A DNA stretch of 64,000 nt from positions 62,001 through 126,000 of the forward strand of contig CASFEZ010000001.1 in NCBI GenBank assembly GCA_949293815.1, in the 5' to 3' direction. Position 1 is the stretch's first letter. Every line of letters starts with the position of its first letter. Both the position numbers and the translations under genes were made by a program. Below are positions 838 through 44,932 of this stretch, in pieces. This DNA comes from an uncultured Eubacteriales bacterium (lineage in GTDB: Bacteria; Bacillota; Clostridia; Oscillospirales; Acutalibacteraceae). The notes beneath the pieces are model-generated. The model was not told the origin of the DNA. It worked only from the letters and a program-made list of their open reading frames with translations, and did no database searches.

Positions 838-877
838 AAAAAGGGCAGTCCGCTTCCGTATTTGAAGTAGACTGCCC
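838..877 (-). terminator. Riboswitch-controlled intrinsic terminator before purE
   Basis: On the minus strand GGGCAGTC (870-877) pairs with GACTGCCC (843-850), with a 19-base loop between, and is followed by TTTTT at 838-842. The upstream arm includes the CTGGGCA end of the ZTP aptamer, so aptamer folding and terminator formation exclude each other. This predicts that ligand binding allows read-through into purE. Confidence 0.85.
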
Positions 878-940
878 AGACGGTCGGCTTGTATTTTTTT
901 CGCTCCCCTGCGGTAACTCCGCTTGTCCGTCAGTCGCGAA
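873..940 (-). ncRNA. ZTP (pfl) riboswitch
   Basis: Reading the minus strand, the segment contains CGCGACTGACGG, a short GCGGAGTTACCGC hairpin, GGGGAGCG, an A-rich linker, and then GCCGACCGTCTGGGCA. These are the two conserved halves of the pfl/ZTP aptamer in the right order. The class senses ZTP/ZMP, which builds up when 10-formyl-THF is short, and usually controls folate and purine genes. It lies directly before purE, which is the expected context. The aptamer's 3' end overlaps the terminator at 838-877. Confidence 0.9.
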
Positions 941-959
941 AAAATAAGTCTTGTTTTTC

Positions 960-3262: not shown

Positions 3263-3676
3263 TTAGTCCAACGGAATTTCCTCATAGGCAAACGGCAGCA
3301 GGTCGCGGATGCCGACCTTGACCAGCTCGCCCTCGTCGTTGTTGACAATGACGCGCACTTCCGGGTCATAGGTGAACAGCATCTGCCGGCAGTTGCCGCA
3401 GGGACTGACCACGCCGTTCGGCGCTTTCAGGTGGGTGGCAACAATGGTGTCAAAAGCGCGGTACCCGGCGTTGACCGCCGCTCCCACCGCCACATATTCC
3501 GCGCAGGAGCCGTGGATGCCGTCGCAGTTCACGCCGGTAAACACTGCCCCGTCCCGGCAGCGCACCGCCGCGCCGACAATGTGAAAATGATTGACCGCAT
3601 CAAAATTCCTCTGAAGCGTTGCCATCGCTTCCCCAATCAATTCCCGATCCGCCGCGGTGATTTCGTAAAATGTCAT
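3263..3676 (-). CDS. Cytidine deaminase-family protein
   Basis: A 137-residue member of the zinc-dependent cytidine deaminase fold. It has the tetrameric-type metal site, with C58-A-E60 as ligand plus catalytic glutamate and P-C93-G-N-C96 for the other two ligands. It probably deaminates cytidine or deoxycytidine for pyrimidine salvage; blasticidin S deaminase-like activity cannot be excluded. An ATG at 3682 lies only one base after GGAGGA, so the ATG at 3676 (7 bases after it) is preferred. That ATG overlaps the stop of the upstream recombinase as ATGA, so the gene may now depend on the island's transcript. Confidence 0.88.
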   Translation of the reverse strand: MTFYEITAADRELIGEAMATLQRNFDAVNHFHIVGAAVRCRDGAVFTGVNCDGIHGSCAEYVAVGAAVNAGYRAFDTIVATHLKAPNGVVSPCGNCRQMLFTYDPEVRVIVNNDEGELVKVGIRDLLPFAYEEIPLD

Positions 3677-4869
3677 AACCATTCCTCCGCTTTTCTTTTA
3701 TTTAACAAAAAAGCCGAAAGCTTATGTTCTTTCTCAAGTGCCTGCCAGAGGTTTTCAATGGCGGCGTCCGCTTCTTGGATAGCGCTCTTGATGCGCTTGA
3801 CGGCAGAGCTGTCAAACTCGCTCTTGAATACCGCTTCGATAGCTTCAGCGATTCGCTGGATATTGCTGTCCGTCAGCATCTGCCGACAGGCCGCAACCAC
3901 CATGTCTTCGATTCGCTTCTTATCAACGACCTTCTTCTGGCACAGGTGCTTCTTGGCATTCTTGCAGGCGTAGTAGTGGTACGCCTTACCGGACTTACCG
4001 GTGTCGCCATGGCCGGTCATCATCTCGTGGCAGTAACCGCAGAACAGCTTGGTGGTCAGTAGATATTCTTCCTTGCCTCGGCTTCTGGCCGGGGCAGCCT
4101 TGTTTTTGTCCAGAATGTTCTGTACTCGTTCGAACACCTCATCACTGACGATGCGAGGCATTCCTCCCGGCGTTTCTTCGCCTTTGTAGAGATAAGTACC
4201 GATATAGCGTTTGTTTCGCAGCAGGCGATGCAGACTGTTCTTGTTGAAGTCGCGACCAAGGGAAGTTTTGATCTGTCTTGCGTTCAAATCCTTGATGATA
4301 TCAGCGACAGTTTCGCCCTTGCCATACCGCTCAAAGATTTCACGAACGATGACTGCTTCATCTTCATCAACATAGAAGGTGTGGTCCGGAGTGACCTTGA
4401 AGCCAAGACCGGGATTGCTGCCGTTGGATAGGCACTTCTGCGCATTGAGCGACATGCCACGGTGGATTTTCTGAGACAGCTCGGCGGAGTAGTATTCTGC
4501 CATACTTTCCAACACGCCTTCCACAAGGATGCCGGATGCATCATCGGTGATGTTTTCTCTTGCGGAGATCACGCGGACACCATTCTTTTTGAGCTTGGCC
4601 TTGTTGATAGCGCTGTCATAGCGGTTGCGGGCAAAGCGATCAAGCTGATAGACAAGGACAGCATTGAAGGTGTGCTTGTCGCTGTCTGCGATCATCCGCT
4701 GGAACTCAGCGCGGTTGTCGTTGGTACCGCTCTGTGCTCGGTCAATGCACTCACCTATGACGGTGTAGCCGTTGTCTGCGGCGAATTTGTAGCAGGTCTT
4801 GAGCTGACCTTCGATAGACTGCTCACGCTGGCTGTGGCTTGAAAAACGGGCGTAGATGACTGCGTTCAT
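3673..4869 (-). CDS. Large serine recombinase, probably truncated at the C-terminus
   Basis: This site-specific recombinase of the resolvase/invertase superfamily probably moves the surrounding island. The catalytic domain begins MNAVIYARFSSHSQRE with the serine at residue 10. A recombinase domain follows at about 160-270, then a zinc ribbon with CGYC and further cysteines at about 280-320, then a coiled coil. Relatives that I recall run to about 500 residues; this one ends at 398, just past the start of the coiled coil. Its last residues, KRKAEEWL, are encoded by the leader of the cytidine deaminase gene, so the tail looks lost by deletion or at an integration junction. The start overlaps the XRE gene by ATGA. 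Confidence 0.85.
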   Translation of the reverse strand: MNAVIYARFSSHSQREQSIEGQLKTCYKFAADNGYTVIGECIDRAQSGTNDNRAEFQRMIADSDKHTFNAVLVYQLDRFARNRYDSAINKAKLKKNGVRVISARENITDDASGILVEGVLESMAEYYSAELSQKIHRGMSLNAQKCLSNGSNPGLGFKVTPDHTFYVDEDEAVIVREIFERYGKGETVADIIKDLNARQIKTSLGRDFNKNSLHRLLRNKRYIGTYLYKGEETPGGMPRIVSDEVFERVQNILDKNKAAPARSRGKEEYLLTTKLFCGYCHEMMTGHGDTGKSGKAYHYYACKNAKKHLCQKKVVDKKRIEDMVVAACRQMLTDSNIQRIAEAIEAVFKSEFDSSAVKRIKSAIQEADAAIENLWQALEKEHKLSAFLLNKRKAEEWL

Positions 4870-5222
4870 TCTTCATCCACCTCCCTCAACATCTGCACGA
4901 GTGTCTGCTTCAATTTTGCATTCATGGGAGATTTGGGATCGAAGCACATTTCTACGAAGTTTGCCATGTCGGCAGGATAACCGTTCTTCGGTTTGTACTC
5001 GTATAGCTTGCCCTGCGGATTATCGGTGCGACCAAAGATGTAATCGAGAGAAACATCGAAGTAATCCGCAATCCGCACAAGCAGGTCAAGCGGCGGTGAT
5101 GCCTCGCCCTTTTCGTAGCGGACAACGCTGGACTGACCCAGATCGAATATCTGAGCAAATTTCATTTGCGAGTAATTCATGCTCTCACGCAGAGCACGAA
5201 TCCGCTCTCCGCATATATTCAT
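4866..5222 (-). CDS. XRE-family regulator cotranscribed with recombinase
   Basis: A 118-residue DNA-binding protein. Residues 7-65 form an XRE helix-turn-helix (MNYSQMKFAQIFDLGQSSVV as the helix pair), ending in the usual DYFDVSLDYIFGRTDNP. A roughly 40-residue C-terminal tail may mediate dimer or partner contacts. The start at 5222 has AAGGAGGTG. It heads a two-gene operon with the recombinase (ATGA overlap), and a palindromic site lies in its own promoter. It probably represses the recombinase and may respond to excision signals. Confidence 0.88.
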   Translation of the reverse strand: MNICGERIRALRESMNYSQMKFAQIFDLGQSSVVRYEKGEASPPLDLLVRIADYFDVSLDYIFGRTDNPQGKLYEYKPKNGYPADMANFVEMCFDPKSPMNAKLKQTLVQMLREVDEE

Positions 5223-5316: not shown

Positions 5317-8300
5317 TTAGGTCATTGCTTTTTTCATATCTTCGAGAAATAGCTTCGTTTCGAGGAGCGTTGCGGGCACATCAAGTTGAGATTTTCTTGC
5401 GTGCTCAATTTCCTCTATTGTGTAATTGCAATACCTGTAGTTTCCTTCGTGAATATCCGCAGATGGGCGGCACCTCGTTATGGCATCAATAGTCTTTTCA
5501 TATGCCACCGTTCCACAGTTGACAAAGGCCTTAGTTAACGAGTTTCGAAGACCATGCCAAGTATTATCCTCGAACTCTGGGTCAAATGTGGTTGCGAGAA
5601 GTGCTTCAAGCTCTGGCAAAAACTCGGGATTACGAATAGAACTTATTGCCGCTGTCGGGCCATCGATATGGATACCTTTGCCTTCAGGCGTTTTTTTACC
5701 ACTCGTAACTTTCTTGACGTAATCACCGAGGGCAAGACTGCTACCATAAGTAATCAAATGTGCCTGCAATTGAATCGATGGTGTTTTCTCATATTCTCTT
5801 TCCATAGATTTACGCAGCTTTTCCTTTGGAATATCCTTGCAAGCGCCACTGATTTCAAGTAAGAGCTCCTCATCGGCGACAGGCAAAATTTCACTGGCAA
5901 CATACTCTGCACCTAAAGTGTTATAAAGATACCGCCATGCAATTGAGCGCAGGTACATATCGCTCGAATCTTTACACATTTCAAGAGCATGTTCTGCAAT
6001 CGAAGCATCCTTGCATTTGTCAAAATAGTCGATGTGATCTTTTAACACCATACCCTTTACGCGTTGTTCGGCAACATTCTGGCTCAGGCGAAGATTCAGC
6101 TTGTCCGCAGGGAGTTTCTGCCGTAAATATACATACTTTGTTCCATCATTGTTTTTGTCAAAGATATATGCCGGCAACTCGGTCAGATCCAAAAAAGTTG
6201 CTTCATCAAGCGGATAATCCAAATACTGAATAACAGACAACAATTCTGCAGTAAGCTGCTTTAGTGAGAAACCATCAGGATAATATATTACACTATTTTC
6301 AAAGCTCCAATCTTTCAGTATCTTGGCAGTTATTTCTGTCAGTCTTTCTTTTTCTGTCAGGGTTGGAACTACTGTCGATTTCTCAGACAAAAAACGCGAC
6401 GCGGACCAAATTACAAACCTATCCATGTCAATCCGATCAAAGAATTCAGATACTTTCACATTGTAGCCAGAGTGATACATTGCAGTCTGAAGTCGGCGGA
6501 TTGCAGAGTGATGATCTGCCTGAATATCCACTTTCAAGAGCTGCCTTGTTGTCACATCAGGATTATCGATTGCATTAAGTAACCGAGTAGTTAATGCGCT
6601 TCTTTTTTCTTCATCGAAGAGGATTTCAAAATACTCCTGTGCAGCCTCTCGTTTCAATGCATCATAGTCAATAGGCGCCTTGTACTCCGGAAGATCAACA
6701 CCGTCAATGGCTTTAATTAATTCGGCGCATTCCGCGTATTTCAGTTCATCCCTAACATACCAGAGAACAATCTCATAAAATGCGCGGTGTGACTTTAGAC
6801 TTCCATCCTGATATGCATTTTTCAGATATTCAATTATAGTTGGATCAGCATACACCAAATCAGATATACGATGGGGTTCAGACTCGAACTGTTCAGTAGC
6901 CGATAGCGCCGCAGACTGTTGAGTGCCTGTTTCCACAAAGAACTTAACCATTGCATTGGATGCTGTTGTGTTCCAAGCTTTTGCAGACTCGAGATAAAAC
7001 GATAGGACAGAGGTAAACAGTTCCGTATGACCGTCCCGATATAGGGCAACTGCAGATGCAATAGCAGCTGCAAGCACCTTATTCGCATCGTGGAAGTCGG
7101 GATGCTTCTCTTGAGAAAACCATTTGAGAACACATGTAACGCTTTCAGTGGTAGACATCTGTTTCAGACAGTTTACCAACTCAAAAGATTCATTCCCGAT
7201 TCTGCGCTCATCATCTTCACCTAACCTATATGCGATAAAACTAATTCCAGACAAGCAGTATTCAACATGGGAATTATGCTCCTCGGTTTCAAGTAAGTAC
7301 TCATACATTCCTAAACGAATATAATCTTCATCCACACCACCGAACTTCTCCATCAATCGTCGTGTTGTTTCAGGAGTCTGAAGCTTATGTTGACAGAGTG
7401 CCAACATCGCCAACCTGCAAACTGTTTTATGTGTTGCGGGATATTGCTCGCAACAATCCAGAAGGATCTCGCGCACAGCATTTTTCTTGTCAAACAAAGA
7501 AGGATAGTTTCTCAAAAGATTAACCGCTGTGTACTGGGACACATAGTGTCGAGGTGTACTTATTCTGTCAAGCAAAAGCGAAAGGATTTCATTGCTCTTA
7601 ACAAAATGGGCTAACTCAGAAGCGTCGAATAGATCGTCGTTAAGATGAAGCCGCAATGTTTCGAACTTATCGAATATCCGCTTGAATACTTCAATACGCA
7701 AGTCCTCATTCAATCGATCTGGCTCAAATTTCACAAGGGCTGATGGACTATTTTCTGCCAGCCAATCAATCAGATTCCACCCGAGATCGAATCCAGTTAA
7801 GTAGCCAAGTGTATTTACCCAATGCGGCTTGATGTTCGTCCCGTCATAGAAAATTGGGGTCACAAAATCTTTTGGCAAGCGAGACAAGCACTTTGCGGCA
7901 AGATATTCACGGAAATTATTATGTGAAAATTTCCATCCCGTACTCTCTCGTTTAAGCAGTCCGCTTTTCTTAATTAGTTCTCTCCCAGAGGCGGAAACCA
8001 AGGTTTGATATTCAGTTCTATCATCCAAAGATTGTTGATGCATCAGTTGCATGGCAACAGCTAATGATTCTAACGATGCAAATACTTCAGCATATCGCTC
8101 GTCCAATTCTCCGGAAAATTTTTGATCATCTACATCAAATGTTTCGGTAATCAGCCTATCCATCAGTTGGTTCTTTGGCGGAAGATCAGTATCTTTTGCG
8201 TAGATGCTTGCCAGTCTGACTAAATAAAACGGATTGAATAAAAGGTCGGTAACACCTTTCACATAGGCACAGTTCCAAAACGAAGTTACATCAATACCCG

Positions 8301-9672
8301 TAGATTTCAAATATTGTCGCAGGTCTTCTTTATCCAATTTTTCCAAAACATAAACATAGAAACCCGAAAATGTTCGAGATTCATTACGGCTCTCATTACC
8401 ACAGAAATTGCTACGGGAGGAGATGACGATGTTTATCGCAGATGCGTCTTGTGCATACAGCTTAATCTTATTCCTAAATGTTTTAGCGAGCTCGCTGTTC
8501 AACTCATCATATCCATCTAAAAGCAAAGCGATTCGGTTAGCGGGAAGCTGTTGGTAGGACTCTGGTAATATCTCCTGAATATCTTGCCCAGTATAGTTTT
8601 CGAGTGAGTAGAGAAACGTATGAAACCGACCAGACAGTTCATGGGCTAAGTTCTTGAGTTCAATGCTCTTTCCCATTCCTGCGTCACACAGCATTAGAAT
8701 TTTTTTATGTTTTTGCACAGCGGTGCGCAGAGAAAGTCTTTTCTCTTGCGCCATTAGTCGCGCGAGAGGACTTTGGACTGCATCTTCATAAAGGGACACC
8801 CATCGTGGAATATAGTCGGTGACAGGCGCATATGGAATTCTGCCAATCTTATTAGGATCGGAAAATTTTTTCGGTTTTGGATATAGTTCATTTAACGCAA
8901 AATCCCCATGTCCATCTTTGGCATCAAGCCAACGTTCAATTCGAACGACTCTTCCATCTTGTATATATCCGACAAGGAATTGATGAAAGACCGAGTCCAA
9001 CCAATCAATTCCACCAGATAGGCTTCCGCATCCGATTTCAACCAAACCTGTTTCATGGATTGTTACATTGGCATCGTGGACATGCCCATGGAAAAAATAT
9101 GAGATACTAACAGAGTTCAAATAGGCAATGACTGTTGCACTGTCTTCAACCACGTCATGTGGGTCACCATGACCATGAGAAAGTGCATGATGACAAAAGA
9201 GAATGTTCGTTAAACCACGCTTAACGTTAGCACGAATGGCAGCAAGATCCAGCCTGCCTGGCGCGGCGTAATCTCTCGAAAGAGTCGAGTCTGCAAAAAT
9301 AAAGTTCACATTATCATGAACCGTAGAAAATACCGAAGCGGATTCAAAAGTGTGCTTACTTCCATACAACGAAGTCAATTGGTCAAACAGGGAAAGTGAA
9401 CCGTTTTCAAGATCATGATTGCCGGGGACAAATTCAAATTCAACGACGTAATCTTCTAGTTCTTCTTGTATCAAAGACAGGCTGTCGCGAGCGGTAGCGA
9501 AAGAGAGTTCTTTGCCTTTGTCCGCGATATCCCCAAGAATAACGAACAGAATGTTTTCTCCAAAATCAGCCGCTTGTCTGATTTTAGAGCACAGCCGTTT
9601 AATGCGTTCACTTGTTTTATACGCTTCCACTTCTGCTCTCAAATGTAAGTCAGAGAGAATATAAAAACGCAT
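5317..9672 (-). CDS. Metallophosphoesterase-NACHT (STAND NTPase) defence protein
   Basis: A 1451-residue multidomain protein. Residues 1-250 form a calcineurin-like/CpdA-type metallophosphoesterase with all metal motifs: D8-x-H10, G47-D48, GNHD 84-87, H161-H162 and HGHVH 195-199. Residues 320-560 form a NACHT-type STAND NTPase with Walker A CDAGMGKS (329-336), Walker B LLLDGYDE (383-390) and the SSRSNF sensor strand (418-423). The remaining ~850 residues are helical and HEAT/TPR-like, the usual place for a target sensor. By analogy with Avs and bNACHT proteins, sensing a phage product would trigger oligomerisation and activate the phosphoesterase, which might cut nucleotides or nucleic acid. 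The analogy is established for other effectors; this effector is inferred. The start has ACAGGAGG. The gene is single and sits between McrBC and the recombinase operon. Confidence 0.85.
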   Translation of the reverse strand: MRFYILSDLHLRAEVEAYKTSERIKRLCSKIRQAADFGENILFVILGDIADKGKELSFATARDSLSLIQEELEDYVVEFEFVPGNHDLENGSLSLFDQLTSLYGSKHTFESASVFSTVHDNVNFIFADSTLSRDYAAPGRLDLAAIRANVKRGLTNILFCHHALSHGHGDPHDVVEDSATVIAYLNSVSISYFFHGHVHDANVTIHETGLVEIGCGSLSGGIDWLDSVFHQFLVGYIQDGRVVRIERWLDAKDGHGDFALNELYPKPKKFSDPNKIGRIPYAPVTDYIPRWVSLYEDAVQSPLARLMAQEKRLSLRTAVQKHKKILMLCDAGMGKSIELKNLAHELSGRFHTFLYSLENYTGQDIQEILPESYQQLPANRIALLLDGYDELNSELAKTFRNKIKLYAQDASAINIVISSRSNFCGNESRNESRTFSGFYVYVLEKLDKEDLRQYLKSTGIDVTSFWNCAYVKGVTDLLFNPFYLVRLASIYAKDTDLPPKNQLMDRLITETFDVDDQKFSGELDERYAEVFASLESLAVAMQLMHQQSLDDRTEYQTLVSASGRELIKKSGLLKRESTGWKFSHNNFREYLAAKCLSRLPKDFVTPIFYDGTNIKPHWVNTLGYLTGFDLGWNLIDWLAENSPSALVKFEPDRLNEDLRIEVFKRIFDKFETLRLHLNDDLFDASELAHFVKSNEILSLLLDRISTPRHYVSQYTAVNLLRNYPSLFDKKNAVREILLDCCEQYPATHKTVCRLAMLALCQHKLQTPETTRRLMEKFGGVDEDYIRLGMYEYLLETEEHNSHVEYCLSGISFIAYRLGEDDERRIGNESFELVNCLKQMSTTESVTCVLKWFSQEKHPDFHDANKVLAAAIASAVALYRDGHTELFTSVLSFYLESAKAWNTTASNAMVKFFVETGTQQSAALSATEQFESEPHRISDLVYADPTIIEYLKNAYQDGSLKSHRAFYEIVLWYVRDELKYAECAELIKAIDGVDLPEYKAPIDYDALKREAAQEYFEILFDEEKRSALTTRLLNAIDNPDVTTRQLLKVDIQADHHSAIRRLQTAMYHSGYNVKVSEFFDRIDMDRFVIWSASRFLSEKSTVVPTLTEKERLTEITAKILKDWSFENSVIYYPDGFSLKQLTAELLSVIQYLDYPLDEATFLDLTELPAYIFDKNNDGTKYVYLRQKLPADKLNLRLSQNVAEQRVKGMVLKDHIDYFDKCKDASIAEHALEMCKDSSDMYLRSIAWRYLYNTLGAEYVASEILPVADEELLLEISGACKDIPKEKLRKSMEREYEKTPSIQLQAHLITYGSSLALGDYVKKVTSGKKTPEGKGIHIDGPTAAISSIRNPEFLPELEALLATTFDPEFEDNTWHGLRNSLTKAFVNCGTVAYEKTIDAITRCRPSADIHEGNYRYCNYTIEEIEHARKSQLDVPATLLETKLFLEDMKKAMT

Positions 9673-9990
9673 AGTAACCTCCTGTATACACTCAACGTTG
9701 AATGGTGAAACATACTTGGCAAACAGTGCACGGCGATAGCCATTTCGATTTTTACCGAAAATGACTGCATCATGTTTAGGGGCAAAATTTCGAAATTCGC
9801 GTGCAGCTTGCTAACTCACAGTTGGAGTTAGCAAGCAGTGCACGACGGTACCCACTCGTGCATTTTGTGAAATTCCCGCTTCGTTGTCATTTCACAAAAC
9901 CTTGCTGGGCAACATCCCAGACCCTTTAACAATTTCGAAGAAATTGGCTGCACTTCAAAGAAGTTAACGATCAGTTTTCGCAATTACTTA
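9673..9990. other. Hairpin-dense non-coding region upstream of the NACHT gene
   Basis: No convincing reading frame is present. Perfect or near-perfect inverted repeats include an 11-bp pair around 9807-9836 (CTTGCTAACTC with its complement), an 11-bp pair around 9862-9898 (TTTTGTGAAAT with its complement) and CAATTTC/GAAATTG at 9930-9946. Two related words, CAGTGCACGGCGATAGCC and CAGTGCACGACGGTACCC, lie at about 9724 and 9836. It could be a leader, a structured RNA or a relic of an oriT-like mobilisation region; sequence alone cannot decide. Confidence 0.5.
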
Positions 9991-10191
9991 AGAGAGTGAT
10001 TCTCTCAGTTTTGAAATAATCCGATTCTCCACATCACTCTCGTTTGTTCTGATCCGCAACAAAGGTAAACCGTATTTCTCCATGACACTGTTCTTCAGCA
10101 AATCTCGTTCAGCTTGGCGGCTACCTTCTGCATGATACCGAGTGCCATCTGTTTCGATGAATCCATTAAAATTCCCTCCCCATGTATCTCG
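9991..10191 (-). pseudogene. Nuclease-like C-terminal fragment (DUF2726/Vsr-like), in frame after McrC
   Basis: Directly after the McrC stop, and in the same frame, 66 codons stay open. They encode a recognisable fragment with ETDGTRYH, then QAERD, then GLPLLRIRTNES. This spacing resembles the C-terminal half of PD-(D/E)xK-like DUF2726/DUF559 domains (DG-x-x-H, RD, LR). There is no start codon or ribosome site. It is most simply the remnant of a deleted nuclease gene, although a read-through extension of McrC across its TAG is formally possible. Confidence 0.6.
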
Positions 10192-11478
10192 CTAGGAATT
10201 TTCCTTAATTTCCGTGATTAGCATATTCAAAGAGTTTTTTAAATCAAACAAATCGATAAATCTGATCTTGATTTCGGTTCCATCATGTGAGAGGAATCTG
10301 ATATCTTTGTCTTGTTCCACCTTCTCGGTGAGAGGATAGAGCAAGGTAACATTCTCAGATGTGTATTTCTTTTGGTAAGCATACATTTGGTACATATCCG
10401 CTTGGGATATACCGTAGTTCGCTTTGACATCGGAAAGGACTTTCCATTTCGTGTCCATAACGAAAACTTGTCCCAACGCCTTATTCTTAATAACAATATC
10501 GGGCTTCATCAAGAACTTTCTCGGCTCATCGAACAGATGGTATGTTTTGTCCTGCGCGGAAAGAGTGTAGCCCGAATTACCAAGCATCTTTTTAAGCTGC
10601 GCTGCTATGTAGCTTTCAAACAGCGTTTCCATCGGGAACAGCAACGCAAAGGCAACCTCCGAACCGGAGAACGATGTGAAGCTCTTGCCCATCAAAAAGA
10701 CCTTGCTCCAGAGCAGAGCCGTCTGATAGTCGGCGGTCTTTCTGTCGGGAACAACCTTTGAGAAATCTGCTTGATAGTCTTTGGATTCATCCACATCAGA
10801 AAACGCATTGCGGAGCGTTTTTATATCGGACTTATTCTTGGGCGAAGTAGTGTTTTTGTAAAGATAGCTGAGAGTGGATTTTAGGATTTTGTTCTCAGCT
10901 CGGTTCGTGTTGAACTCATCGTATTCCACGAAGTTGCGTTCCTTGTGAGCGTAATTATGCTTGATTTGACCTGCGAAAACCATCTTGCCCTTAAACACAC
11001 TTTCGTTAGATTGAATGGTCTCGTAGTCGCACTTCAAGCCTCGCTTGACAATGTAAAACATTTCATCGACAAACATACGGATAAAGATTTCAAAGATGTT
11101 CAGCTTGTCGATATTCACATTGGTAGATTGCAAGGACTTGAACGGCTCGTTGCGGAGTGTCTTCAACATATCCACAAGCAGCTTCTTGACCTTGCCCTCT
11201 GTAATGGTTTCGTGGGAGAAAATCTTGGGAAGGATTTCTATGGTCGTGCCATCATCCATTGTGATCACACCGACATAGTTTTTTGCGGTGATGATTTTGC
11301 CAACACCTTTACGGGCAGAAATTCCCATCAGCTCCAAGGCATCTGCATCATCTGAACTGTTGGATAGCACGAAGTTTTCTAAGGCATCAAAGGTGTCCGG
11401 GGGCAAAGAGATACTTCCCAATACCTCTTTGTCCCTCACAAATGAGCCATATTCAGTTATTTGATATGTTTTCCTCAT
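10192..11478 (-). CDS. mcrC: McrC, nuclease subunit of McrBC restriction system
   Basis: A 428-residue McrC-family protein. The N-terminal half (about 1-200) is the beta-rich domain that docks onto McrB. The C-terminal half is a PD-(D/E)xK nuclease, with KPDIVIKN (D at about 326) followed by VMDTKWK (D341, K343). With McrB it cleaves DNA carrying modified cytosines, a defence against phages with modified genomes. The start at 11478 has GAGGTG five bases upstream. The gene follows McrB by 20 bases in one operon and ends in TAG, after which the frame continues (see 9991-10191). Confidence 0.93.
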   Translation of the reverse strand: MRKTYQITEYGSFVRDKEVLGSISLPPDTFDALENFVLSNSSDDADALELMGISARKGVGKIITAKNYVGVITMDDGTTIEILPKIFSHETITEGKVKKLLVDMLKTLRNEPFKSLQSTNVNIDKLNIFEIFIRMFVDEMFYIVKRGLKCDYETIQSNESVFKGKMVFAGQIKHNYAHKERNFVEYDEFNTNRAENKILKSTLSYLYKNTTSPKNKSDIKTLRNAFSDVDESKDYQADFSKVVPDRKTADYQTALLWSKVFLMGKSFTSFSGSEVAFALLFPMETLFESYIAAQLKKMLGNSGYTLSAQDKTYHLFDEPRKFLMKPDIVIKNKALGQVFVMDTKWKVLSDVKANYGISQADMYQMYAYQKKYTSENVTLLYPLTEKVEQDKDIRFLSHDGTEIKIRFIDLFDLKNSLNMLITEIKENS

Positions 11479-11498: not shown

Positions 11499-14400
11499 TT
11501 AGATCGAACGGTATGCCTCGATGTTGTCAAAGGCTGCACGATTGATTTCGTATGTAACAGAGTCATCGAAACCAATGTCTGCACTTCCGAACAATTCGTT
11601 GTAGTCGTTTTCAACCACAACAATGAACTGCTCTTCTTTGTTGTCCTTATTGTTGTCACCCAGGACAAGGCGGATCTTTTCGTAATCCTCGTAGAAGTAT
11701 TCCTGCAACAGAGGAACGATGGCGTTCTCAAAGATTTCAGCCAACTGCTCAATCGTAGGATTATCTCTCAGCGGAATGAAATAGGCATGTCCAATAGTGT
11801 GTTCTCTGTCATAGAGAACAGAAATGCGCTTGTTCATCCGCGCAAGCATTTCCGACACAGAAATATCCTCAACGCTGATACCCTTCAGCACATTGGCATC
11901 GGGCATCATTTCCTTGAAACGGAAACGACGTCTCAAAGCGGTATCAATGGTCGCGATAGAACGGTCTGCGGTGTTCATCGTTCCGATGATATAAACATTG
12001 TCGGGCACACCGAACAACTGCTGAGAATAAGGCAATTTAGCTCTCATGCCCTCCGGTTGACCGATACGCTTAGAAGATTCTATCAGCGTAATCAGTTCAC
12101 CAAAGATCTTGCTGATATTACCTCTGTTGATCTCATCGATGATAAATACATGGTTTTTCTTTTCGTCCATCTGCACCGTGGCGGGCAGGTGTTTCTGAAT
12201 AAGAGCCATTGCATCCGCAAGAGAAACCTTCAGTTTGTAGACGGTGGAAAGGGTCATGGTGGAACCGCCGTTTATCTCAACAATATCTTCGTTGATTCCC
12301 TTAACGATCCAGTTCACCTTTCTCATGCGGTTCAGACCGTCATTGAACTGATTGTCGCACCACTCATAATCTCCGGTTACAACACCGATTGCATCAATGG
12401 TTGTGCTTGAATAACAGGAGAAAACAATGTCTCCAACTTTCATTTTGTAGATGAAGCTGTTCAATACGTTCTTACCGCCGTTTTCGGTAAAGTCTGTATC
12501 GTCGGTAATGTCGGGGCCATAATCATCCCATCCAATTCGGATGTGTCCGTTGTTAAGGCACTCAGTTCGGGTGGGATTGTCGCCGGTTGACCACAGAGAG
12601 ACTTTCCAAATGGTAGGAGTCTTATTGAGGCATAAATCCAGATTGGATTTTTTCGCAGCAGGCATAGCAGATTTGTTGCAGAAAGCCTTGAACAAACCAT
12701 CTTCAATGGAATACTGGATGTCGCTGCGATCTTCATCCGTGTTGTCCATGACAGGCTTGATACCCTCAATAAACTCCTCATAGCCATAAGACTGATGGAA
12801 GGTAGTAAACTCGATCAGCCCCTCGGCTCTATATGCGTTGTATCTTTCCAACACATCGGAATAGCTTTCACGCTTCACATCAGCGAGCAGCTTGTTCTCT
12901 ATGATTGCAACCGCATAGACAACGGTGTTGTAAGTTTTGCCCGTACCAGGAGGGCCGTAAAGAATCGTATTCTTATTTACATCCGTCTTTTGCGTGCTTT
13001 CAGACACTTCTTCATCCTCCTCGTACTTTGCAGAAATATGAGACAAATCTATCTCTTGCAGAGCTTCGTAAAGCTCCGGTCTGATTTTATAGCAATAGTT
13101 TTTAACGCCATCCTCAATCATGTTCTTGCCCAAGAACGGATTGGGGAAATATCTTTCTTGGTCGCCGTCCATGCAGGCAGTCAAATCGAAATACTTTTTA
13201 ACTCGCTTTCCAAGGTTGACCGCACAACCAACATAAGCAGATACAGTTCCACCATAGAGCTGAGACAGGCGTTTACAAGATGCCTCGCCGTTAAGCTCCA
13301 TCATGGCTTTCAGCATTTGCATAGGAGAAGGATGATCGGGCAGTTCGATTTCAAGTATGTACTTCTTCCAATCCGCTTTGGAGAGATTCGGGTTGTATTC
13401 ATCAAGCGAAGGCCACCAATCGTCGGCTATCGCATCGTCCGTCAAGGCATTCTTGCTGCCAAAATAAACAATATCGTGAGTAAGCAGATGCAATCCGTCA
13501 TCTGCGTAGCAACCTTCATCCAGACGAGCAGAGCTAATTCCCTGCAGCTCTGTATCTTTTTTCACTTCATCCAGAACCAACTCGCACACATCAAAGAATG
13601 CTTCAAGTTTATAGACTTCGGATTGGAACTTGGAACGGTCAGTTACATAGCCAATGTTGCTGCTGAAATCCTTAAAGACCTTGTACTTGTAGATGTAGTA
13701 TTTATCGGGATATTCAAAAGAAAGGTACACGGAGATAGCGTGTAAATCCTGATAGTGGTTGAGCTTCTGCGGCTTATAGAACTCGTCAAAGGCTGCACGG
13801 AAGTCAACGTATCTCTGAGCGAGAGGGATTTCTTCGTTATAGAGCATCTTGAAAAGCTCACGCACCTTGTCGGGTTCCTGCTCGGCAAATGTGATGACCA
13901 TCTTATAGGGCCAATACATGTTTGAAGAAAGCAGATTGCTGGCTTCCTTAAACGCTTCGGCGTACATTTGCGCGAAGTTTTCTGCTTCAATCTCCCAGTT
14001 GCGCTGATAGCAGCCAACGGCTTCCCATTTGTAGCGTTCTTCTTGGTTTACACGCTCAAAGTCAGCCTTATACGCATCTATGATGAGTTTGATTCTTTCT
14101 TTCATAGGGCTTGTCGGTATAATGTTAGTGTTGTTCTGCTTATTGAGAAATTGCATATAGAAATCCAGACCGTTTCTAAAATCACGATGTCCTTGCTTTT
14201 TATCGGACTCCTCGACCTTTGTATAGCAGGCTTTATGGAGTTCAGCAAAATACTCTGGATCTGTGATCGTAAAGCAATTGACCTCCTCATACTTGGACAC
14301 ACCAAGCTTTTTCAAGCCTGATTGCAGTTTATCTGCGGCACCATTGATAGTCTCAACTGAGTATTTCTTTGTCGGATTATCTCTGCGAGGTTGATCCTGC

Positions 14401-14690
14401 ATCCAGGAAACAAAGAGCTTGCGTTGTCCCATAGCGGTAGTGTTTTCGCGGTATTCAACGTATTTTTTGAGATGCGAAGTCATATCACTTCGTCTTTTAA
14501 GTTCCGTTTTATTAAGTTCTGTACTTCTTTTATCTTGCTCAAGTTTCTGGAACAAATTGCGGCATTTATCTCCTGCATATTCGACATCAATATCTACGCC
14601 GTATATACTTTCAATGGCTTTCAAGCCAACGGCATAACTGTCGCCGCTGGCGCTGCCTACATAAGACATAAACTCATCTCTGCTAAACAT
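11499..14690 (-). CDS. mcrB: McrB-like AAA+ NTPase with EVE/PUA-like insertion
   Basis: A 1063-residue GTPase/ATPase motor of the McrBC system. About 570 N-terminal residues are helical and poorly recognisable and should hold the target-recognition part. Walker A GPPGTGKT lies at 579-586, the Walker B IIDEINRG segment near 849-856, and the McrB signature MNTADRS plus LRRRF beyond. Between Walker A and B, at about 688-830, is an insert with IWKVSLW, HIRIGWDDYG, MKVGDIVF and VVTGDYEW, which read as an EVE/PUA-like modified-base-binding fold. The motor therefore may have a second reader of modified DNA. The ATG follows the upstream gene's stop directly; GAGGTGG is the ribosome site. Confidence 0.9.
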   Translation of the reverse strand: MFSRDEFMSYVGSASGDSYAVGLKAIESIYGVDIDVEYAGDKCRNLFQKLEQDKRSTELNKTELKRRSDMTSHLKKYVEYRENTTAMGQRKLFVSWMQDQPRRDNPTKKYSVETINGAADKLQSGLKKLGVSKYEEVNCFTITDPEYFAELHKACYTKVEESDKKQGHRDFRNGLDFYMQFLNKQNNTNIIPTSPMKERIKLIIDAYKADFERVNQEERYKWEAVGCYQRNWEIEAENFAQMYAEAFKEASNLLSSNMYWPYKMVITFAEQEPDKVRELFKMLYNEEIPLAQRYVDFRAAFDEFYKPQKLNHYQDLHAISVYLSFEYPDKYYIYKYKVFKDFSSNIGYVTDRSKFQSEVYKLEAFFDVCELVLDEVKKDTELQGISSARLDEGCYADDGLHLLTHDIVYFGSKNALTDDAIADDWWPSLDEYNPNLSKADWKKYILEIELPDHPSPMQMLKAMMELNGEASCKRLSQLYGGTVSAYVGCAVNLGKRVKKYFDLTACMDGDQERYFPNPFLGKNMIEDGVKNYCYKIRPELYEALQEIDLSHISAKYEEDEEVSESTQKTDVNKNTILYGPPGTGKTYNTVVYAVAIIENKLLADVKRESYSDVLERYNAYRAEGLIEFTTFHQSYGYEEFIEGIKPVMDNTDEDRSDIQYSIEDGLFKAFCNKSAMPAAKKSNLDLCLNKTPTIWKVSLWSTGDNPTRTECLNNGHIRIGWDDYGPDITDDTDFTENGGKNVLNSFIYKMKVGDIVFSCYSSTTIDAIGVVTGDYEWCDNQFNDGLNRMRKVNWIVKGINEDIVEINGGSTMTLSTVYKLKVSLADAMALIQKHLPATVQMDEKKNHVFIIDEINRGNISKIFGELITLIESSKRIGQPEGMRAKLPYSQQLFGVPDNVYIIGTMNTADRSIATIDTALRRRFRFKEMMPDANVLKGISVEDISVSEMLARMNKRISVLYDREHTIGHAYFIPLRDNPTIEQLAEIFENAIVPLLQEYFYEDYEKIRLVLGDNNKDNKEEQFIVVVENDYNELFGSADIGFDDSVTYEINRAAFDNIEAYRSI

Positions 14691-15101
14691 TTATACCACC
14701 TCTTTCAATCTCTCTAACCATGTTCGAATACTGCCGTCTTTGAAAAAGCCGAGCAACGCGCCATCACAGAAGCGCTCTGCCCGAACGGCACCCATAATCA
14801 ATGCCATAACACATTGAGCGTCCAAGGAAGAAACATCTGCCTCGCGCATGGATTTGGAACACCATTCAAGGCCATTTCTTTCCAAGATTTCACCATATCG
14901 AGTGAGTTCAAAATCCTTGTTGTTATCGCTGAAAGCGTACACATCATCAATGAAGCGATGCACCATTTCCGAGTAATTAACAAAAGGAATCTGAATCGGG
15001 TGCTCCGGTGTACCATCATTTTCACGGTCAATGATCCATGTTCCGAAGTTGTCTTCATCAAGGATATCTATGTATTTTGTTAGTTGCTCAAACTTGCTCA
15101 T
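14691..15101 (-). CDS. DUF6508-like protein of the McrBC operon
   Basis: A 136-residue soluble protein of unknown function, acidic and helical, with LDAQCVMALIMGAVRAERFC as its most conserved-looking block. From memory it matches the DUF6508 family, which is often found just upstream of McrB-like genes in Clostridia. AAGGAG lies 7 bases before the ATG at 15101; the ATG at 15107 is too close. Its stop abuts the McrB start, so the two are translationally coupled. A role as an accessory or inhibitor of the restriction complex is a guess from position. Confidence 0.75.
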   Translation of the reverse strand: MSKFEQLTKYIDILDEDNFGTWIIDRENDGTPEHPIQIPFVNYSEMVHRFIDDVYAFSDNNKDFELTRYGEILERNGLEWCSKSMREADVSSLDAQCVMALIMGAVRAERFCDGALLGFFKDGSIRTWLERLKEVV

Positions 15102-15170
15102 GCTCATTCTCCTTGTGCTTATTTTACACCGTTAAGCATTGTAACAAATATGCTGTCCTAAATAACGGAC

Positions 15171-28737: not shown

Positions 28738-28783
28738 ACCAAAACCGGCAGCCCGGGAAATATGGCTGCCCGTTGTTTCTACA

Positions 28784-28958
28784 AACCGTCCTTTTGCCTG
28801 AGAGATTGGCGAGACGCTGTGCGTTCGCTTTGCCCCTTCGGCCTTCGCGTTCTGCCGCGAACTTCTCCGGAATGGCCGTCCGCCCGCAGTCCTCTCCCTT
28901 TTTGGGGAACCTGAGAGTGCTGCTCCTTCGGAAAGACCGTGGTCTTGTCTCCTGCGGG
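28784..28958 (-). ncRNA. Tandem glycine riboswitch
   Basis: On the minus strand the first aptamer shows GCAGGAGA, CCGAAGGAGCAGC and ACTCTCAGG; the linker follows; the second shows GGAGA, GCCGAAGGGGCAA and ATCTCTCAGGCAAAAGGACGG. Two full glycine aptamers in tandem are the classic arrangement. The expression platform is the hairpin pair at 28706-28771. Confidence 0.92.
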
Positions 28959-29209
28959 TTTCATTCGGCGCAATATGAAATGAACGGAATGTATTTTACA
29001 ACGAAAATGCGTCCGATTGCAATACGGGGGCAAAAAATCGGAATCTTGCTGAAAATATCCTATGATTTTGCCGCCGCTTTTATCCCTCTTTCACAAGGAC
29101 AATCCAACAGATGGGACATATAAGTGTTGTTTTGTCAATTTAATGGCGCCGCTTTCTTCATTTTTGAGTTATATATTTATAAAAAATGAGTTTTCAGGGA
29201 AAAGCCGTG
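28959..29209. other. Intergenic region, mostly featureless
   Basis: This stretch between the riboswitch and the exporter promoter is AT-rich. A short frame at 29062 has no ribosome site or recognisable product. I see nothing functional apart from the presumed promoter of the riboswitch. Confidence 0.5.
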
Positions 29210-44804: not shown

Positions 44805-44819
44805 GGTTGTTGCAGTAAA

Positions 44820-44898
44820 AAGGGGTGCCGGTTTTCGGCTGAGATCGCCTTTTAGGCGGGACCCTCGAACCTGATGCGGGTCATGCCGCCGTAGGAAT
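44820..44898 (+). ncRNA. TPP riboswitch (THI element)
   Basis: The aptamer shows AGGGGTGCC, GGCTGAGAT, the ACCCTCGAACCTGATGCGG core and CCGTAGGAA. It binds thiamine pyrophosphate and, with the terminator at 44933-44968, should switch off the uptake genes when the vitamin is plentiful. Confidence 0.95.
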
Positions 44899-44932
44899 TT
44901 TATCTTTGCAGCCATTGCCAATAAGATGTATT

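Follow-up and report, generated by a model that had tools for sequence, protein, structure and literature searches.

We describe a metallophosphoesterase (MPE)–NACHT fusion protein that is real and intact and probably immune in function, encoded within a 64,000-nucleotide stretch of DNA from an uncultured Eubacteriales bacterium (contig CASFEZ010000001.1, positions 62,001 to 126,000; this whole stretch is hereafter the window). The 1451-residue protein, at 5317..9672 on the minus strand (residue 1 at 9672), belongs to an MPE-NACHT family separate from DS-8, a reported antiphage protein, and the novelty that remains is this separate family together with evidence of effector exchange on its NACHT and C-terminal regions (hereafter the chassis). 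We favor, at a probability of about 0.62, a model in which the protein acts alone as a STAND-type (NLR-like) phage defense, sensing through its C-terminal region, assembling through NACHT, and arresting growth as the MPE hydrolyzes a nucleotide-type phosphodiester. The sequence supports the component parts of this model; for sensing, assembly, substrate and defense it draws on DS-8 and other NACHT proteins.

The gene is a single uninterrupted frame of 1451 codons with an ATG start and an AGGAGG a short way 5’, lying exactly where a first-pass annotation of this DNA had placed it, and a spurious open reading frame (ORF) was rejected as an explanation because homologues run full length. Calcineurin-like MPEs are marked by the motifs D-x-H, GD, GNH[D/E], H and GHxH. 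All of these fall within one N-terminal domain of the window protein (approximately residues 1–245; 8938..9672, minus), as D8-x-H10, G47-D48, G84-N85-H86-D87, H161-H162 and G196-H197-x-H199, and Pfam Metallophos (PF00149) matches residues 1–200 at 2.1e-12 (48.3 bits, cut-off 21.5), bearing out the complete phosphoesterase that the annotation had proposed.

NACHT proteins carry a P-loop, a Walker B of the form hhhhDGxDE, a sensor arginine and an FxHxxFxEYLAA region. The window protein has the features of such a STAND NTPase: its core (approximately residues 312–484; 8221..8739, minus) contains a P-loop at residues 330–336 that reads LCDAGMGKS and keeps K335 and S336, the Walker B LLLDGYDE at residues 383–390 and SSRSNF at residues 418–423, and the motif FSHNNFREYLAA, of a kind usual in NACHT proteins, follows at residues 582–593 (7894..7929, minus). 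The columns of this motif are invariant in alignments A1, A2 and A4, and it lies where the chassis is best conserved. In the window copy itself PF05729 and PF25199 score under their Pfam cut-offs (NACHT 14 of 26.7 bits, E-value 0.044; nSTAND_NTPase5, E-value 0.0013), so the earlier NACHT call stands on its motifs and on relatives: when five further members were put through Pfam, four exceeded the PF05729 cut-off (L002 28.0, L017 32.6, L022 28.4 and L020 35.8, where L-numbers denote loci), and L025 gave no NACHT match at E-values up to 0.05. The objection that the call is wrong on account of the low Pfam score was rejected because these relatives exceed the cut-off. The remaining C-terminal region (approximately residues 641–1451; 5320..7752, minus) is the proposed sensor and is less conserved, with mean identity to other MPE members of 0.16–0.30 in 50-residue windows from 801 on, against 0.49 at residues 551–600 ahead of it; a Pfam scan placed no family in it. 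Domain order and kept metal ligands thus support the annotated picture of a STAND/NACHT protein with a putative enzyme in the effector position.

The protein is one of at least eight distinct predicted proteins that share the MPE motifs, NACHT and C-terminus: among the matches listed, the family comprises the window protein, L002, L017, L020, L021, L022, L023 and L025 (L002 and L019 are the same locus, with contigs of equal length and 100% identity, and were counted once). All members with a named source come from Bacillota, among them L022, from the strain Clostridium algoriphilum DSM 16153. At the level of the order, four of 394 genomes, own genome included, gave any match at 1e-5; the other three were G078 (L002; 28% identity across residues 23–1444 of the window protein), G297 (L003), which aligns from residue 277 on, and G275 (L004), which aligns at residues 77–266, in the MPE only. 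A phylum-level scan with the chassis alignment found the own genome alone of 398 at 1e-30, and the same alignment searched against genome contigs gave at least 590 pattern matches resolving to at least 44 loci, at least 11 of them at 5e-32 or better and the others weaker. Among phage records one of 50,697 matched, L017, an unannotated 5.3-kb fecal scaffold (34.6% identity over 97% of the query) that begins inside the gene and so places the first metal motif (D8/H10) outside the record; two of 72,556 plasmid records matched, covering 27% and 22% of the query. No relative emerged when genome contigs and viral contigs were scanned with the single sequence, or viral contigs with the MPE alignment. 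L025 stops approximately 200 residues early, with no further match after its end, and L026 and L029, which match in two frames, were excluded from the trees.

Other N-termini occur on the same chassis. L063 (5401–9420 of a 52.7-kb IMG/VR contig) carries a SMEK domain (PF21941, 5.2e-19); L003, L018 and L024 carry N-terminal stretches without a Pfam match; and by eye the N-terminus of L027 resembles that of L003 and that of L028 is HNH-like, with none reported by Pfam. In chassis trees the non-MPE proteins L003 and L027 are nested among the MPE rows (support 99/98 with 14 rows and 97/97 with 12), and a single clade of the eight MPE rows was rejected (approximately unbiased (AU) test, p 0.015), for a chassis group named after the first tree had been seen. 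The second tree and the AU test left out L028 and L018 on account of their long branches and kept the long rows L063 and L024. As these non-MPE proteins fall inside the MPE rows, the trees provide good evidence that the MPE would occupy an exchangeable N-terminal slot, with L027 filling just 12% of columns, some rows being long, and the direction, MPE gain or loss, not told by the tree.

The same two domains are joined in DS-8 (DefensePredictor, Science 2026, PMC13092281), a one-protein MPE-NACHT system reported to block phages, with defense abolished by mutations in either domain. The first-pass suggestion of an undescribed architecture is therefore not supported, and from comparative genomics Kaur et al. 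2021 (PMC8195603) had already listed calcineurin among the effector domains that replace bDLD3 N-terminal to STAND NTPases; those NTPases have an FGS part. Literature searches pairing metallophosphatase or phosphoesterase with NACHT returned nothing relevant besides the DS-8 paper.

The window protein shares with DS-8 an N-terminal MPE fused to a NACHT-type NTPase in one chain, but membership in DS-8 was rejected: the NCBIfam model NF053861 gives it 53.8 bits against a cut-off of 790, with the best stretch at model positions 2–85, in the MPE, whereas the true member L005 scores 1115.6 bits, and the model has 994 positions against 1451 residues here. By profile the NACHT regions align (probability 96.8, E-value 2.7e-10, 355 columns) at only 13% identity, with no alignment reported past NACHT and what follows it, the A4 profile used in this comparison containing three non-MPE rows; the MPEs of the family and DS-8 align over 87 columns. 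DS-8-like proteins carry nSTAND_NTPase4 (L005, L006 and L074, with L077 just under the cut-off), which Pfam did not list for any of six family proteins (the window protein and five others). By these profile and domain comparisons, the family and DS-8 have different chassis.

The MPEs leave more room. A 20-row MPE tree sets the family and L004 apart from the remaining rows (100/99); L004 (1246–3162) encodes 639 residues in which Pfam reports an MPE alone, with no NTPase, and its MPE is nearer to the family than that of DS-8 is. The MPEs of the family and DS-8 as one clade were rejected (AU p 0.002). The first AU test (family, DS-8 and DS-8-like, p 0.002) had in addition required the DS-8 and DS-8-like rows to group and had kept L004 outside. 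Once L004 was admitted, neither family plus L004 plus DS-8 (p 0.10) nor family plus L004 plus DS-8-like (p 0.45) was rejected, and clearly separate origins of the two MPEs are weakened as a proposal by these results. Because the chassis differ and because of the position of L004, separate MPE-NACHT fusions in the family and in DS-8 are likely, the MPE-tree part of this argument being a hint resting on one row, L004. The slot in DS-8 also seems exchangeable, since L076 (1–2622, on a Vibrio parahaemolyticus plasmid) is a DS-8-type STAND protein (nSTAND_NTPase4) with an N-terminal TIR.

Further MPE proteins were seen beside these two groups. L010 (1489–4239) and L011 (1–2412, minus) encode MPE-NACHT proteins that the MPE tree places outside both DS-8 and the window family; L014 (393–2099) joins an MPE, which pairs with that of L010, to a GNAT acetyltransferase domain; and L007, L008, L009 and L012 form a group of related MPE proteins, in which L009, from a genome of the family to which the source of the window belongs, has a weak match, below cut-off, to the GTPase-associated adaptor domain (GAAD; 0.0016).

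Avs and bNACHT proteins follow the same general plan as the window protein, with an effector, a STAND NTPase and a large C-terminus; to our knowledge, MPEs are not among the Avs effectors, and no PADLOC Avs model matched the window protein at E-values up to 1. HyoA and EruA, NACHT antiphage proteins modeled by NCBIfam as NF058534 and NF058535, are likewise distinct: the window protein scores 30.2 and 42.4 bits against cut-offs of 1200 and 1000, and the best family scores are 51.9 and 42.8, although residues 438–773 of L019 match the HyoA model at 2.6e-14. A literature search on HyoA and EruA, judged by titles, returned nothing on these NACHT proteins.

The MPE looks enzymatically active, because its metal motifs are invariant in all seven aligned MPE rows of the family and because the ratio of nonsynonymous to synonymous substitution (dN/dS) in the close pair L020/L021 is low in the MPE (0.137, against 0.140 in NACHT and 0.145 overall). 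The eighth member, L017, keeps the metal positions (nine checked) except D8/H10, outside its record. Loss of metal ligands in relatives was looked for, and each member of the family retains those that its record contains; across 20 MPE rows compared at the nine positions, L010 and L014, both non-family, have Asp where the window protein has H197.

What the enzyme would cleave is suggested by its nearest structures. The best profile match is lmo2642 (2xmo, 1.5e-8), in stretches 27–103 and 131–209; the phosphohydrolases 2dxl and 2zo9, which we take to be GpdQ, match at 6.3e-5 over residues 3–214; and Mre11/SbcD structures match at 1.9e-6 (3qg5), 9.7e-6 (2q8u) and down to 7.8e-4, all within residues 1–112. 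Because the first two reach residues 209–214 and Mre11/SbcD stop near 112, a small phosphodiester is weakly favored over DNA as the substrate.

The strongest competing explanation is that the MPE is a nuclease of the Mre11/SbcD kind that would cut phage or host DNA or RNA upon NACHT assembly, which we regard as unlikely but worth keeping in view. The Mre11/SbcD profile matches speak for it, as does the sole PADLOC match of the window protein at E-values up to 1, an ‘Effector, Endonuclease’ family (PDLC00736; residues 2–90, 5e-5), and nucleases are common on Avs and NACHT proteins. It is disfavored by the shorter reach of those matches, by lmo2642 being the best of all, and by the approximately 65 residues between MPE and NACHT, which would leave scant space for an SbcD-like capping domain. 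Less probable still is that the MPE is a regulator removing a nucleotide signal while NACHT acts by other means. Calcineurin-type enzymes have been predicted to be nucleotide phosphodiesterases in conflict systems (PMC7159879), and the MPE of DS-8 has been likened to SMPDL3A, which cleaves cGAMP (PMC13092281), but the MPE of our family fills the slot that SMEK and other N-termini take on the same chassis, and no signal-making gene was recognized among the five typed window neighbors.

In the STAND-effector model that we prefer, the C-terminal region and NACHT would keep the protein at rest until it encounters a phage component. That encounter would trigger nucleotide exchange and assembly of NACHT, by analogy with other NACHT and Avs proteins. 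Assembly would then switch on the N-terminal phosphoesterases, which may hydrolyze a nucleotide-type phosphodiester and so stop the growth of the infected cell.

The neighbors of relatives bear on whether such a role is plausible. At L020, HsdR (two ORFs, of which the second was assigned by eye), HsdS and HsdM lie directly upstream, approximately 30 bases before the start, with an AlbA_2 protein downstream; L021 has the same upstream gene order by eye, relaxase-like genes were seen by eye at both loci, and a scan of 51 neighboring ORFs (at least 100 residues, within 6 kb of six family genes) found two members per type I model. A NUDIX-PLD-ResIII-DUF3427 protein (type IV restriction model, 1.8e-236) lies approximately 170 bases downstream at L022, where NERD is also found, and a DndB/DpdB-like protein lies 0.7 kb upstream at L023. 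At L025 a DUF4062 protein is encoded 0.2 kb away on the opposite strand; members of the DUF4062 family have been reported to act as antiphage NADases (PMC13174449). PADLOC at 1e-15 matched 72 families in the 51 ORFs.

Several observations weigh against a defense role or temper this support. The survey covered six family loci with flanks, and the neighbors to type were picked by eye; the sole neighbor typed at L019 gave nothing, and neither of the two typed at L025 had a PADLOC match. The best 25 of the 72 PADLOC families were seen and hits were not assigned to loci, so enrichment is not proved, and among 39 other window ORFs taken as a control six matched PADLOC at 1e-15 (mad3 in five, a type II nicking enzyme in one). 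Because control ORFs match too, the case rests on the identities of the neighbors and not on counts; the homologue neighborhoods that the first-pass annotation wished to see scored thus yielded restriction genes beside several members without a proven excess. The P-loop of the window protein is, in addition, slightly degenerate: the first Walker A residue is Cys, where six of the seven other members have Gly and L025 has Ser, so that ‘intact’, which holds for Walker B, K335 and S336, was slightly generous for Walker A. The mad3 and nicking-enzyme matches lie at 18.3–64 kb of the window.

In the window, Pfam confirmed the McrBC genes, serine recombinase and regulator that had been noted beside the gene. 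Upstream, all on the minus strand, lie an McrC-type protein (10192..11478; PF10117, 2.5e-89), an McrB-type AAA protein (11499..14690; AAA_5, 1.8e-13; NCBIfam McrB 2.8e-35, below cut-off) and, ahead of McrB, a DUF6508 protein (14691..15107; PF20118, 3.5e-14). Downstream on the same strand are a helix-turn-helix regulator (4866..5222; PF01381, 3.6e-13) and a 398-residue serine recombinase (3673..4869; PF00239, PF07508 and PF13408), whose 3’ end overlaps the start of ORF 3263–3682, a cytidine deaminase by eye; tracing the deaminase through 30 relatives in search of an empty site gave 7 matches, own genome included. G+C is 0.41–0.45 at 5–16 kb, lower than in both flanks (0.51–0.56 at 1–5 kb and 0.48–0.55 at 18–24 kb), which fits horizontal gain of the stretch that holds the MPE-NACHT gene and McrBC. 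A role in plasmid or integrative-element exclusion, or a non-immune process carried by a mobile island, would accord with the adjacent recombinase, this low G+C, the relaxase-like genes at L020 and L021 and the patchy spread across order and phylum, but we consider it improbable, as defense genes are likewise mobile and patchy and several typed neighbors are restriction genes.

The intergenic stretch that separates McrC from the MPE-NACHT gene (9680–10010) contains a 27-base direct repeat (9716–9742 and 9828–9854; 81%) and is single-copy in the genome except for a weak inverted match within itself. Elsewhere in the window are a ZMP/ZTP riboswitch at 867–947 (minus), ahead of ORF 308–826 (PurE-like by eye), a pair of neighboring glycine riboswitch aptamers at 28776–28964 (minus) and a TPP riboswitch at 44811–44914 (plus).

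At its broadest, the finding could mean that a second phosphoesterase-armed NLR-like family, on an effector-swapping chassis, arose in Bacillota independently of DS-8, and that its MPE, once activated, breaks down a nucleotide pool or messenger that is new as an immune target; we advance this proposal tentatively, with the balance tilted against it. The data suggest that the pairing of a phosphoesterase with a NACHT switch is no isolated case, as it is seen on two or more distinct STAND chassis, each also found with other N-terminal domains. If this is true, bacterial NLR-like proteins would repeatedly use phosphodiester hydrolysis as their output, and the family would offer another, distant system for seeking the substrate of DS-8.

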